From a virus, in IMG/VR virus record IMGVR_UViG_3300022821_000019, positions 1 through 64,000 of that record: a DNA stretch of 64,000 nucleotides. One strand, 5' to 3'. The notes under the pieces were generated by a model that saw only the letters and a list, made by a program, of their open reading frames with translations, was not told the DNA's origin and ran no database searches. Below are positions 3,362 through 62,176 of this stretch, piece by piece. The translations under genes and the position numbers were made by a program. The first letter of the stretch is position 1. The number at the start of each line of letters is the position of its first letter.

Positions 3362-4764
3362 CAGGAAGTCCTTGTGACAGTCACTACGTCACCAACACAC
3401 GAGATACTCTGAGTAATGGCTGCAACGGTTCGTTGTACATCACTTACTGTAAGCGGGGCACCAAGCTCTAATCCGAGTATCTGATAAATTTCACAGATCT
3501 TGGTAGCAAGCGCATCGGTTTGCGTGAACAGGACAGCACCAGCAGAACCCGAGGTGGTCATTGAGGAAGTAAGGGTATTCCATACGGCGTTAGCAATCGC
3601 CTGTTCGTTAATCGATACCGAAGCTGAAATCTCTGTAGCTCCAATTTGGTTCTGCAAGAATCCCATGGTTCCCGAGGCGTCATACACACCCGAGGCAGCT
3701 GACCACACACCCGAAACTACTGAAGCGATTGACTCGGTTGTTAGACTCGCAGTGACTCCATTTGCAATATTTGTAGTATTATTCAGTGTCTGACTTGTAT
3801 CAAAGCGAATGTCGTCTATCAGATTCTGAAGGAAGCCCATCGTGCCTGAGGTATTGAATGTTACATCATTTGCTTGCCACACGGAGCTGACGAATGTATT
3901 AATTGAGTCTAAGCTTATTTCAACTGAACCCGAGGCAACAATGTTCTGTATGTCTGTTGTTTGCCCAAGGATAGCATTCACACCAGAAATAAGCAACAGG
4001 GTGTCCTGAAGAATGGTTGTTGAGTTTGTGAACGTCTGGTTTTGAATGTAGCCCATTGTGCCCGACAAGTTGAACGTCGAGGTCACCGCACTCCAAACAC
4101 CAGAAACTATGTTGTTGATAGAAGCTTGAGTCACTTCTGAAGACCCTGAGGCAATTAGCAACTCAGTGTTGTCAAAAACCTGACTTGACGAGTAGACCAG
4201 GTCATCTATATTCCCACTAATGTCAGTAATAATATTGAAGATTTGCGACGAGGAAAAAACTAAGTCGACTGTGTTTTGGTATGTCAGGCTCTGAGTCTGG
4301 AACATGCGGTCAACGGTCCAGCCAAAACTATCCACACTTGAAGTGAAGTTAAGTCTGTTCGCTTCCCAGACTCCTGAAACAATTGAGTCTACATCAACTG
4401 TAAAGGAAGCGGAGACTTCACCTATCTGGATTGAGCCACTCAGGGAATTGAAGTCATCTTCGGACACCTTGAGGATTTCAGAAAAGGCGGTGGTGACGTG
4501 AGGAGGCGAAGAGGTGTCCAGCTCTACACTTACACCATATTCGCCACTACCATTAGACACGAGGAAGACTGATGGGACGTCAAAACGGTACAAGCCTGCC
4601 TTTTGTTGGCTTTGCGTGACCACCATTTGTGATGAGGTTGTATCGCTTGCATCTACGACCAGGGCTGTAAAGTCGCTGCCAGTAATGTCGGTCCTAAGCA
4701 GCCCATTATTACGAACAACTTGAAACCATACTCTGAAACCTGTATCTGATCTGGTGAAGTACAC
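3361..4764 (-). CDS. Tail-fibre-like protein with SGTMGFLQN repeats
   Basis: A 467-aa protein. An N-terminal beta domain (about 1-100) is followed by repeats built on I-x-x-VVSGVWSA ... F-x-SGTMGFLQNQ, at about residues 127, 217-241, 290-313, 348-371 and a diverged copy at 389-412. The linkers are Ser/Thr/Asn-rich and low in charge, as in extended trimeric fibre shafts. The VW ... SGTMG repeat type is common in phage fibre and baseplate proteins. It overlaps its downstream neighbour by one base. A receptor-binding or shaft role is inferred. Confidence 0.65.
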   Translation of the reverse strand: MYFTRSDTGFRVWFQVVRNNGLLRTDITGSDFTALVVDASDTTSSQMVVTQSQQKAGLYRFDVPSVFLVSNGSGEYGVSVELDTSSPPHVTTAFSEILKVSEDDFNSLSGSIQIGEVSASFTVDVDSIVSGVWEANRLNFTSSVDSFGWTVDRMFQTQSLTYQNTVDLVFSSSQIFNIITDISGNIDDLVYSSSQVFDNTELLIASGSSEVTQASINNIVSGVWSAVTSTFNLSGTMGYIQNQTFTNSTTILQDTLLLISGVNAILGQTTDIQNIVASGSVEISLDSINTFVSSVWQANDVTFNTSGTMGFLQNLIDDIRFDTSQTLNNTTNIANGVTASLTTESIASVVSGVWSAASGVYDASGTMGFLQNQIGATEISASVSINEQAIANAVWNTLTSSMTTSGSAGAVLFTQTDALATKICEIYQILGLELGAPLTVSDVQRTVAAITQSISCVGDVVTVTRTS

Positions 4765-49206: not shown

Positions 49207-49278
49207 TCGGGAATAGGTAACAGGCAAGTTTTCTGAATCAATTTTAGGTCACTCTAGGTTCAAGTCCTAGTTCCCGAA
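49207..49278 (+). tRNA. tRNA-like gene, anticodon uncertain (best fit CAA)
   Basis: 72 nt. Acceptor TCGGGAA/TTCCCGA is perfect (7 bp), the T arm CTAGG-TTCAAGT-CCTAG is perfect, and the discriminator A is followed by CTA as in the phage tRNA-Lys. The anticodon arm only forms with wobbles (TCTGA/TTAGG, loop ATCAATT, anticodon CAA) and the D stem is weak. CAA would be Leu, but bacterial tRNA-Leu normally has a long variable arm, absent here, and position 37 is T. It may be a decaying or non-standard tRNA. Confidence 0.55.
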
Positions 49279-49310
49279 CTAATTTCTTATATTCGCTGTT
49301 TCGTTAGAAA

Positions 49311-59648: not shown

Positions 59649-59894
59649 GTGACATCATACGAGCAGCGGCCAACAAACCTTTTAGAGAAACTGTTTTTGT
59701 TCGCCTTGTTTGCAACTTGCTTGTTATGTATCGGGTTCCTGCTAATTTCGTTTCTTGTTGTTTTCGGGTTCTTGGCCTGTGTCAAAATATCGTATGAATT
59801 TGCGATGCTGCTAATAAAAAAACTATTCAGTCGTGAGCAAAAGAAAAAAACAAATAAGGGCAGCCTTTCGAGACGACGTCTTCAAAAGAGATGA
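59649..59894 (+). CDS. Small membrane protein
   Basis: 81 aa from GTG. The long hydrophobic region LFLFALFATCLLCIGFLLIS and FLVVFGFLACV is followed by a strongly basic tail. Its 3' end overlaps the HNH gene by 62 bp, an unusually long overlap, so the HNH gene may have intruded on the tail. Confidence 0.5.
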   Translation: MTSYEQRPTNLLEKLFLFALFATCLLCIGFLLISFLVVFGFLACVKISYEFAMLLIKKLFSREQKKKTNKGSLSRRRLQKR

Positions 59895-60165
59895 ATACCG
59901 CTGTACCATATGCGGGCTGAAAGCCAACAAAGAAGACCCCGAGGCTACTTTGGATGCTCATCATATAGTCCCAAGAGTCGATATGCCCTTTGGGGGATAC
60001 GTCAAAGAGAACGGCATTACGCTTTGTAAAGCGAAGTGTCACCTCATGGCAGAAGAGTTCTTGCAAGGGACTGCATTCCATGAGGGCTTCGCACCTGAAA
60101 CTCTCTATGAAAAAATTGGTTCAGACCACGAAGCTGCCAAAAGAGCTTCGTCGAAACTTGCCTGA
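59833..60165 (+). CDS. HNH endonuclease
   Basis: 110 aa from GTG. FKRDEYRCTICG, LDAHHIVPRVDMPFGG and ITLCKAKCHLMA give the CxxC and His/Asn/His nuclease fold. It has no NUMOD domain. A free-standing phage HNH; could be a homing enzyme or a packaging-type nuclease. Confidence 0.78.
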   Translation: MSKRKKQIRAAFRDDVFKRDEYRCTICGLKANKEDPEATLDAHHIVPRVDMPFGGYVKENGITLCKAKCHLMAEEFLQGTAFHEGFAPETLYEKIGSDHEAAKRASSKLA

Positions 60166-60424: not shown

Positions 60425-60455
60425 AGTTCACAAATCAGTCGGACTGTGCTACTAT
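60425..60455 (+). promoter_or_regulatory. Phage family promoter for the tRNA-Arg/HNH unit
   Basis: AGTTCA (60425-30), 19 bp, TACTAT (60450-55), with TGC before the -10. It lies just upstream of the tRNA-Arg 5' relic, as expected for the original tRNA gene promoter. Confidence 0.65.
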
Positions 60456-60472
60456 AGATGAATAGCAGGTCT

Positions 60473-60515
60473 GGGCCCATGGTGAAAGGGACTATCGCAG
60501 GAACCTCCTAAGCAT
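60473..60515 (+). pseudogene. tRNA-Arg 5'-half relic
   Basis: GGGCCCATGGTGAAAGGGACT continues with D-arm and a CTCCTAA anticodon loop. About 80% of 42 nt match the 5' half of the intact tRNA-Arg at 60938-61010. The anticodon stem no longer pairs (GGAAC/GCATT) and no T arm follows, because the HNH gene interrupts it. Confidence 0.75.
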
Positions 60516-60544
60516 TGCTTTGTTTTAGAGTCATACTTTGAGAC

Positions 60545-60976
60545 GTGAAACACTGTTCAAAATGCAACATCGCCAAACCTGTAAAGTCATTCTCCAAAAA
60601 CAAACGCAAGAAAGACGGGTTGCAGACCGAATGTAAAACATGTCGGGCCTTGTACCTAAAAACACATTACCACAAGAACAAAGAGTATTACAAAGAAAAA
60701 GCCAAGAAAAAAACACAGAAGTTGCGACAAATGGTTTTTGACCAGAAGCACATGCAACCTTGTACAGATTGTGGTAAAAGGTACCCGTACTATGTAATGG
60801 AGTTTGACCATCTAAACCCCAATCAAAAAGACAAATGCATAGCTCAGCTAGTTAATTTTGGAAACAAATCGAGGCTACAAGAAGAAATTAATAAATGTGA
60901 AATAGTCTGTGCCAACTGTCACAGAGAACGAACGCACGGATCCATGGTGAAACAGGATATCACAGGAGCCTCCTAA
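60545..60976 (+). CDS. HNH homing endonuclease ending inside tRNA-Arg
   Basis: 143 aa from GTG. N-terminal KHCSKCNIAKPVKSFSKNKR and CKTCR form a zinc finger; the nuclease is CTDCGKRYPYYVMEFDHLNP and IVCANCHRERTHG. The last codons (SMVKQDITGAS, stop) are read from the 5' half of the tRNA-Arg gene, and the TAA stop is in the anticodon loop. It separates a relic of the tRNA 5' half from the intact tRNA. Confidence 0.85.
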   Translation: MKHCSKCNIAKPVKSFSKNKRKKDGLQTECKTCRALYLKTHYHKNKEYYKEKAKKKTQKLRQMVFDQKHMQPCTDCGKRYPYYVMEFDHLNPNQKDKCIAQLVNFGNKSRLQEEINKCEIVCANCHRERTHGSMVKQDITGAS

Positions 60977-61010
60977 GCTCTTATTCCAGGTTCAAGTCCT
61001 GGTGGGTCTG
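60938..61010 (+). tRNA. tRNA-Arg (anticodon CCU)
   Basis: 73 nt. Acceptor GGATCCA/TGGGTCT (two G-U wobbles), D stem GTGA/TCAC perfect, anticodon arm GGAGC-CTCCTAA-GCTCT, T arm CCAGG-TTCAAGT-CCTGG, discriminator G, then CTA. Its first 39 nt are also the end of the HNH gene. CCU reads the rare AGG codon in many bacteria. Confidence 0.9.
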
Positions 61011-61050
61011 CTAACATTTGTTCTTAGGAACAATATTTTGGAGTTATAGT

Positions 61051-62176
61051 ATGAATACGTCAACAAAGACGGGGTCTCACTGGAGGTCCCTTTACCTGGT
61101 TTCCTTCTAGTACAGAAACCAAAATTCGATTTGCCGATAAACCCCTTAGAATCAAGTTCGGCATCGACCCAACACGAGATCGCTTGCATCTCGGCCATTT
61201 TGTTCCCTTGCGTATTTGCCGTGAGCTACAGGAACAAGGCCACAAGCTAGATCTGATTCTAGGAACTTTCACTGCACAACTCGGTGACCCAAGCGGCCAG
61301 GACAAGACCAGGCCTTTCTTGACCGAGGAGGTGACCAAGCGCAACGCTGAAAAGCTGCTCGTGCAAGCGAGTAAAGTGCTACTACCTGGGTTCGAGGTTC
61401 ATCGAAATCATGAATTTGTGAAAGACATGAACATTCCATTCTTCTTGTCCAGACTCGCCAGCAAATTTACAGTTGCCAACATGATGGCTCGGGACGGGTT
61501 CAAAAGGCGAAGCGAAGCTGGCGCACCTATTTCACTCCACGAGTTCCTTGTCCCCCTTTTGCAGGGCTGGGATTCCGTAGTCCTAGATTCAGATATCGAG
61601 ATTGGCGGGACGGACCAATTGTTCAACTTCCAGGTTGCTCGCTCTCTTCAGGAAAGTGAAGGGCAGAAGCCTGAGTCGTGTATTCTAACTCCTATCATCC
61701 GAGGTACTGATGGTCGAAAGATGAGCAAGTCTTTCAATAACACTATTTGGTTGGATGAAAAACCAGAGGAAATGTTTGGTCAGGTAATGAGCATCCCTGA
61801 TAGTGTTACGGATGAATGGGTTGAACTATTGACAAGTTTGACCAACCTTCCTGGACATCCAATGGTCAAGAAAAAACTACTTGCCTGGGATATTGTTCGA
61901 CAACTACACGGTGAAGTAGCTGCTTGTCAGGCTCAAAAACTTTTCGAAGCTCGGGTGCAACGCAAAGAGGCACCTCGGGAGATGCCCGTGGTTGACTCTG
62001 ACTTCCTTCTAAAGATTGTTGCGGTAATTCGAAACGAAAGTAACAACAGAGCAAGAAAGTTGATTTGCCAAGGCGGTGTTTCAGTCAACGATGAAAAAAT
62101 CCTGGACCCATTGTTCTTTCCTGAGTCTGGAAGCCAAATTAAAATCGGTAAGAGGAAATTTGTAATCGTGAAGTGA
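61051..62176 (+). CDS. tyrS: Tyrosyl-tRNA synthetase, needs +1 frameshift near its start
   Basis: From KFGIDPTRDRLHLGH on, the frame is a full TyrRS: HIGH-type HLGH, LGTFTAQLGDPSGQDKTRP, GGTDQLFN, KMSKS (GRKMSKSFNN) and a C-terminal S4-like RNA-binding domain (SNNRARKLICQGGVSVN). No start codon exists in that frame before the TTG at 61184 within LHLGH. An ATG at 61051 with GGAG upstream opens the adjacent frame and stops at TAG 61108. A +1 shift there joins LYLVSF to STETKIRFADKPLRIKFGID, giving the normal N-terminal length. It charges tRNA with Tyr. Confidence 0.8.

Follow-up and report, generated by a model that had tools for sequence, protein, structure and literature searches.

Elements mobilised by tyrosine integrases restore the end of the tRNA gene at their attB/attP sites, and the anticodon loop is a known sublocation of such sites. 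In fungal mitochondria, mobile ORFs such as that of Allomyces atp6 bring with them a substitute for one end of the host gene. The homing endonuclease I-TevI binds an operator that resembles its homing site and thereby represses its gene (PMC2988022). HNH genes have already been reported from tRNA arrays, and SegB from the vicinity of tRNAs (PMC5966550, PMC6409571, PMC13096335). SegB is said to cut within tRNA-containing DNA, and HNH endonucleases of phage and mycobacterial tRNA arrays are linked to the diversity of the tRNA repertoire (Pope 2014, via PMC5966550; PMC6409571).

We analysed positions 1-64,000 of the 64,585-base IMG/VR record IMGVR_UViG_3300022821_000019, a near-complete stretch that we call the window. 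Its phage genes include a T4-type RNA ligase/tail-fibre attachment catalyst, an SbcC-like nuclease subunit, a head-tail adaptor, and DNA polymerase A. It also holds an HNH gene that ends inside a tRNA-Arg(CCU). Sequence comparison leads us to a reading to which we give a probability of about 0.74: a free-standing HNH homing cassette would have inserted just past the anticodon loop of the tRNA gene, bringing a new 5' half instead of relying on splicing. Like the integrase elements, this cassette carries a piece of tRNA gene and the tRNA stays functional, but it has neither an integrase nor a conserved identical att repeat (the two halves agree at 33/40 positions in the window), and its tRNA piece is coding sequence of its own gene. 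As in the ORFs of the Allomyces atp6 type, an endonuclease insertion displaces part of the host gene and offers a substitute in frame, although there the hosts are organelle protein genes and the 3' ends are concerned, whereas here it is the 5' half of a phage tRNA. The likeness to I-TevI, a case of group I intron homing, lies in the insertion at the target and in the target-like operator over the endonuclease promoter (PMC2988022); unlike I-TevI, the HNH cassette has no intron and no splicing, resupplies the 5' part, and has as its putative operator an inverted repeat of the anticodon loop. SegB of phages T4 and T6 is also a free-standing homing gene among phage tRNAs, but it belongs to another nuclease family (GIY-YIG), and the texts consulted describe no split relic, rebuilt 5' half, or loop-matched operator. 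For the HNH genes of tRNA arrays, the texts consulted (PMC5966550; PMC6409571) report the association only, with no insertion site, relic, or rebuilt tRNA. We found no description of a split tRNA with relic, rebuilt 5' half, and loop-matched operator in the open-access papers searched. The cassette is thus apparently an undescribed variant of intronless homing, although such a negative does not prove novelty.

The tRNA-Arg(CCU) of the window is intact at 60938-61011 and is called by both ARAGORN and Rfam (60938-61010/61011, 54.7 bits). Its first 39 nt overlap the HNH gene (Table 1), which bears out the proposal of the first-pass annotation that a second, intact 5' half forms the last codons of this gene and completes the tRNA. 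The annotation had also placed the stop codon of the HNH gene in the anticodon loop: this TAA is at 60974-60976, within the loop, and its T is the third anticodon base. A relic of the original 5' half precedes the HNH gene and reads GGGCCCATGGTGAAAGGGACTATCGCAGGAACCTCCTAA. It is 84% identical to the rebuilt half over 37 nt without gaps (33/40 with gaps), and the alignment scores 12.5 standard deviations above shuffled sequences, with a p-value at the floor of 300 shuffles. The relic had been claimed to extend over 60473-60515; its existence is well supported, but its end falls at 60511-60513. ARAGORN still recognises a tRNA-Arg(CCT) when the relic is rejoined in silico to the 3' half, and all the acceptor pairs (7/7) form. 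The anticodon stem is partly decayed: the relic makes 4/5 of its pairs when combined with the 3' half, and 3/5 when combined with the 3' flank of the relic itself. A promoter had been claimed ahead of the relic, but the motif there is at chance level: one such motif was found for 1.6 expected in shuffles, and we therefore regard it as weak. No intrinsic terminator was found between the relic and the HNH gene. Rfam gave no group I intron match in the window, and the tRNA is complete without splicing. The insert consists of a single HNH ORF, and the two copies of the half, alike as they are over 37 nt, diverge in their stems, which does not fit an integrase element. Elsewhere in the window (49207-49279), ARAGORN predicts a tRNA-Leu(CAA) of only 73 nt without Rfam support, which may be spurious or degenerate.

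Table 1. Features of the tRNA-Arg(CCU)/HNH locus, in window coordinates.
Feature	Coordinates	Strand	Remarks
Promoter-like site TTCACA-17-TACTAT upstream of the relic, possible promoter of the uninterrupted tRNA	60427-60455	+	Weak motif
Relic of the original tRNA-Arg(CCU) 5' half, from acceptor 5' strand to anticodon loop	60473-60511	+	Similarity extends to 60513
Relic anticodon loop CTCCTAA, first half-site of the operator-like inverted repeat	60505-60511	+	
TTTAGAG, imperfect reverse complement of the loop (5/7), after a 12-nt spacer	60524-60530	+	Weak alone
HNH endonuclease gene, GTG start, 143 aa, phrog_2255	60545-60976	+	Codons 132-143 are tRNA 5' half
Rebuilt tRNA-Arg(CCU) 5' half, last 39 nt of the HNH gene	60938-60976	+	
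Rebuilt tRNA anticodon loop CTCCTAA	60970-60976	+	Contains the HNH stop
tRNA-Arg(CCU) 3' half	60977-61011	+	34/36 identical to the empty allele in L002

If the HNH gene was inserted, a relative lacking it should join the 5' and 3' halves directly, as the first-pass annotation predicted. Such an empty allele is present in L002 (IMGVR_UViG_3300025364_000003), a related phage of 206 kb whose TyrRS is 77% identical to the one downstream of our locus. By inspection, the HNH and small membrane-protein genes that lie upstream in the window have counterparts in L002, which carries between these and TyrRS a single uninterrupted tRNA-Arg(CCT) at 4106-4180. A stretch containing TATAG occupies a place similar to that of the promoter-like site. 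The relic and the rebuilt half are equally distant from the L002 tRNA (35/39 each), and this pair alone thus cannot tell which half is native. L002 is the only viral contig with a close TyrRS or with a match to the tRNA 3' part, which leaves the window with a single empty relative; a DNA search of the locus in isolate phages gave no matches. We made three further observations on the surroundings. The upstream HNH gene (PF01844, window 59833-60165, L002 3454-3801) lies just 5' of the tRNA locus and looks unrelated to the inserted one; since it is present in the relative with the empty allele, it predates the insertion in the tRNA. A tRNA-Arg(TCT) directly follows the tRNA-Arg(CCT) of L002 (4184-4257) and is absent from the window. 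Finally, homology to TyrRS extends 5' of the first in-frame start in the window (61051-61184, start at 61184), the ATG at 61051 being out of frame; L002 has an in-frame ATG, so that the window may have a frameshift or an unusual start.

Closer comparisons come from isolate phages. Presence or absence of the HNH gene at one site was found in four pairs (Wofford/Karimac, PaoP5/K5, crAss001/PhiCrAssBcn4, and FelixO1/fKMPT1), the window/L002 pair being more distant. KIL1/KIL2 was left out as a clean pair, the entire tRNA-Thr being different. On the left side, the Streptomyces phage Wofford is exactly identical to Karimac up to 3 nt past the loop CTCATAA, a stretch that takes in the 5' half of the second tRNA-Met(CAT) of Karimac. 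Next come the HNH gene and then a different complete tRNA-Met(CAT), the first 38 nt of which are the 3' end of the HNH gene. Here the whole tRNA, beyond the 5' half, was swapped for another with the same anticodon. Among the matches listed, around 25 related records align only up to this breakpoint. In the Pseudomonas phage PaoP5, the 5' half of the tRNA-Lys(UUU) of K5 is kept (36/37 identical) and the break comes directly after CTTTTAA; the HNH gene follows the relic, and 469 bases in PaoP5 take the place of 11 in K5. This phage did not regain a functional tRNA-Lys, so restoration is not guaranteed. PAK_P4 has a different HNH gene, whose TAA stop falls within the anticodon loop of a tRNA-Lys; this tRNA appears in the authors' annotation and is not called by ARAGORN. 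Together with L002, the Wofford/Karimac and PaoP5/K5 pairs support the earlier suggestion that the insertion replaced the interrupted half, and the window and Wofford show the tRNA being kept. In FelixO1 versus fKMPT1 and in crAss001 versus PhiCrAssBcn4, the gene lies directly 5' of an essentially unchanged tRNA, and direct comparison reveals no relic. The difference between relic-bearing and relic-free pairs leads us to distinguish two modes of insertion. The insert of crAss001 (NC_049977, L121:1106-1602) comprises a tRNA-Gly(GCC) and an HNH gene, both absent from about 20 otherwise near-identical PhiCrAssBcn phages.

We then surveyed 213 HNH ORFs taken from 197 viral loci, isolates included. 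Among ORFs with a same-strand tRNA starting -60 to 300 from their stop, 58 of 97 HNH stops overlapped the tRNA, compared with 18 of 118 stops of the other long ORFs at the same loci (odds ratio 8.3, Fisher p = 1.3e-11). The overlaps cluster at 10 (the commonest), 15, and 37-39 nt, which in the sequences correspond to stops at T8-A9-G10, in the D loop, and in the anticodon loop. The non-redundant set comprises 79 phage HNH genes of this family that adjoin a tRNA; the majority end within its 5' part. Aligning the upstream region to the 5' half of the following tRNA is a weak test when the supplied half is recoded, and indeed only 7/77 loci reached p≤0.01 with the cognate 5' half (3/77 with non-cognate halves, 1/77 with the 3' half). 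We therefore adopted two other tests. A profile of tRNA 5' halves detected relics upstream of 11/79 genes, and none in reverse complements or shuffles. The anticodon-loop 7-mer of the following tRNA was found upstream in 19/79 (expected, 0.57), and the signal peaks sharply at the loop. With all methods pooled, 13 of the 16 readable relics have the anticodon of the following tRNA: CCU, UCC, ACG (three), UCU, UAC, CAA, UUG, CAU, UGU, and UUU (two). It differs in L032, L124, and the second HNH of L026. These same-anticodon relics (at least 13/79) are usually broken just past the anticodon loop, and the supplied half matches the relic at 24-33 of 37-42 positions (seven cases). Relics range from complete to internally deleted (L035, L069) to absent, around 60 of the 79 members having no detectable one. 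The tree of the HNH proteins requires 51 changes of tRNA identity among 74 proteins, when 26 identities imply a minimum of 25, and tRNA genes were therefore entered many times. At the level of sequence, we thus observe that the gene is inserted at the anticodon loop, that the 5' half is kept, that a same-anticodon 5' part serves as the end of the nuclease gene, and that this arrangement arose repeatedly.

The loop copy upstream of the HNH gene is often half of a palindrome. In 15/79 loci, the loop 7-mer is followed 11-14 nt later (mostly 12) by its reverse complement, with at most one mismatch in total; non-cognate loops, used as a control, gave 0.08 expected. The sense arm always comes first, and the opposite order never occurs at this threshold. 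The arms change in step with the tRNA: CTTCCAA (Gly), CTTTTAA and CTCTTAA (Lys), TTTGTAA (Thr), CTCATAA (Met), TTTGGGA (Pro), CTTCTAA and CTACGAA (Arg), and CTCAAAA (Leu). HNH promoters bearing it include those of L005, L019, L035, L116, L117, L132, L137, L154, L155, L158, and L193, among others. The palindrome of the window has two mismatches, a level at which 22 cognate cases stand against 1.1 non-cognate ones. Of the two half-sites in Wofford, the first is part of the tRNA sequence of Karimac itself, and the second arrives with the cassette. Several palindrome loci keep no other tRNA sequence, suggesting that the loop copy is under selection. At many of them, a TATAAT-like box and the HNH start lie within about 30 nt downstream; the -10 box follows the palindrome at several loci, which would place the palindrome outside the transcript. 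An RNA hairpin was set aside as an explanation on this ground and because the mismatches are mostly not G-U changes. The palindrome is possibly an autoregulatory operator that predicts the specificity of the nuclease, I-TevI being the closest precedent.

The HNH protein of the window matches phrog_2255 (E = 7e-34), with an EFDH ... CANCH motif and invariant C73, C76, D88, H89, C122, N124, C125, and H126. Neither Pfam nor a sequence search of the PDB gave a match. The fold model has a mean pLDDT of 89, and Foldseek finds as best PDB match, a weak one, the Gme HNH nickase 4h9d (probability 0.92, E = 0.07). Residues 133-143 are below 50 whereas the rest is at around 90 or more. These residues are nearly the entire tail encoded by the tRNA (132-143), which, being disordered in the model, looks free to follow the sequence needs of the tRNA.

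The homing reading could work as follows. The HNH protein would cut or nick tRNA genes near the anticodon loop, as the breakpoints there indirectly suggest, and the break would be repaired from a phage bearing the cassette, the relic serving as the left homology arm and the 3' part of the tRNA as the right one. In the sequence, the original 5' half remains to the left of the insertion, and the last codons of the HNH gene make up an intact tRNA with a 3' half. In an otherwise intron-like layout, splicing is not needed because the 5' exon is supplied again at the 3' end of the cassette. Sequence differences between the relic and the supplied half could make the filled allele resistant to cutting; that the rebuilt loop of the window is the same as the relic loop counts against this part of the reading. 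The palindrome over the HNH promoter might copy the target site and allow the protein to repress its own gene. If so, insertion at the right tRNA would complete the repressor site and thereby report the specificity of the enzyme. Cleavage by RNase P at the tRNA 5' end would sever the HNH message ahead of the stop codon, which would put tRNA maturation in competition with synthesis of the nuclease.

Other histories could place a 5' half on each side of an HNH gene. The upstream half might never have been a remnant, but a selected leader, a tRNA mimic or decoy regulating HNH expression. The retention of the loop 7-mer as a palindrome arm even without other tRNA sequence is what one would expect of such an element. 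Yet relics may be complete, internally deleted, or absent, and in the isolate pairs the relic is the 5' half of the very tRNA found in the other phage, which makes this account unlikely; regulation may be a later use of part of the relic. We regard as quite unlikely a tandem duplication giving two tRNA-Arg(CCU), with the HNH gene inserted between them and the 3' half of the upstream copy decayed. Duplicates are common in tRNA arrays, and at 8/77 tested loci an intact upstream tRNA with the same anticodon makes a co-linear tRNA duplication hard to exclude case by case. However, such a tRNA is present only once in the empty alleles of L002 and K5, relics break off at the anticodon loop instead of at scattered positions, and the alignment test given above shows no excess of 3' halves ahead of HNH genes. 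Karimac does have two tRNA-Met(CAT), yet the break in the interrupted one falls exactly at its own loop, and this tRNA matches the relic.

An ordinary free-standing homing gene might also have settled in the spacer before the tRNA, the overlap being a convenient in-frame stop and the relic an unrelated pseudo-tRNA. This holds for FelixO1 and crAss001, with their unchanged tRNA and no relic, and the stops on conserved tRNA triplets such as T8-A9-G10, the site of the commonest overlap, fit it as well. It leaves unexplained the same-anticodon relics, their common breakpoint, and the Wofford/Karimac and PaoP5/K5 pairs, and is contradicted at relic-bearing loci, including the window, where we hold it to be very unlikely. 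Finally, the HNH protein could be mainly a work-horse of DNA packaging whose location in tRNAs is incidental. The packaging of PaoP5 DNA is reported to require its HNH (PMC13083879), and this gene, Orf50 in PMC12846349, is the one inserted in the tRNA-Lys. It is nonetheless missing from most of the Pakpunavirus records matched, as PMC12846349 also notes, and the family enters many tRNAs in unrelated phages; we find this account highly improbable. The PaoP5 gene reported as needed for packaging (NC_029083, L106:2455-2926) is thus the very insertion that destroyed the tRNA-Lys. It may be read anew as a gained mobile gene, and its role in packaging merits a second look.

The homing reading, if correct, means that a selfish gene can inhabit an RNA gene without intron or intein, the substitute for the severed part doubling as its own last codons. 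The finding of the same arrangement in many unrelated phages suggests that splicing is not needed for a parasite to settle in an RNA gene and keep it whole. Such insertions occur in much-studied phages (crAss001, FelixO1, PaoP5, and the Streptomyces Karimacvirus). They would account for the crowding of HNH genes in phage tRNA arrays and for their overlap with tRNAs, and offer a route for the replacement and diversification of phage tRNA genes. Whether all these loci form one widespread class is, in our view, an even bet. Judging from the surveyed loci, its cassettes would target the anticodon loops of many tRNAs, use the interrupted 5' half as homology arm, end the nuclease gene in a recoded 5' half or tRNA, and carry in the promoter a palindromic loop operator, one half of which comes from the target tRNA. 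The loop-matched palindrome would then reveal the probable target of each nuclease from its promoter, making specificity directly testable. We also noted, just 5' of an HNH gene of the same family (L016:3780-3945), a group-I-intron-like sequence together with a tRNA 3' half, which may represent an intron-borne relative of these cassettes.
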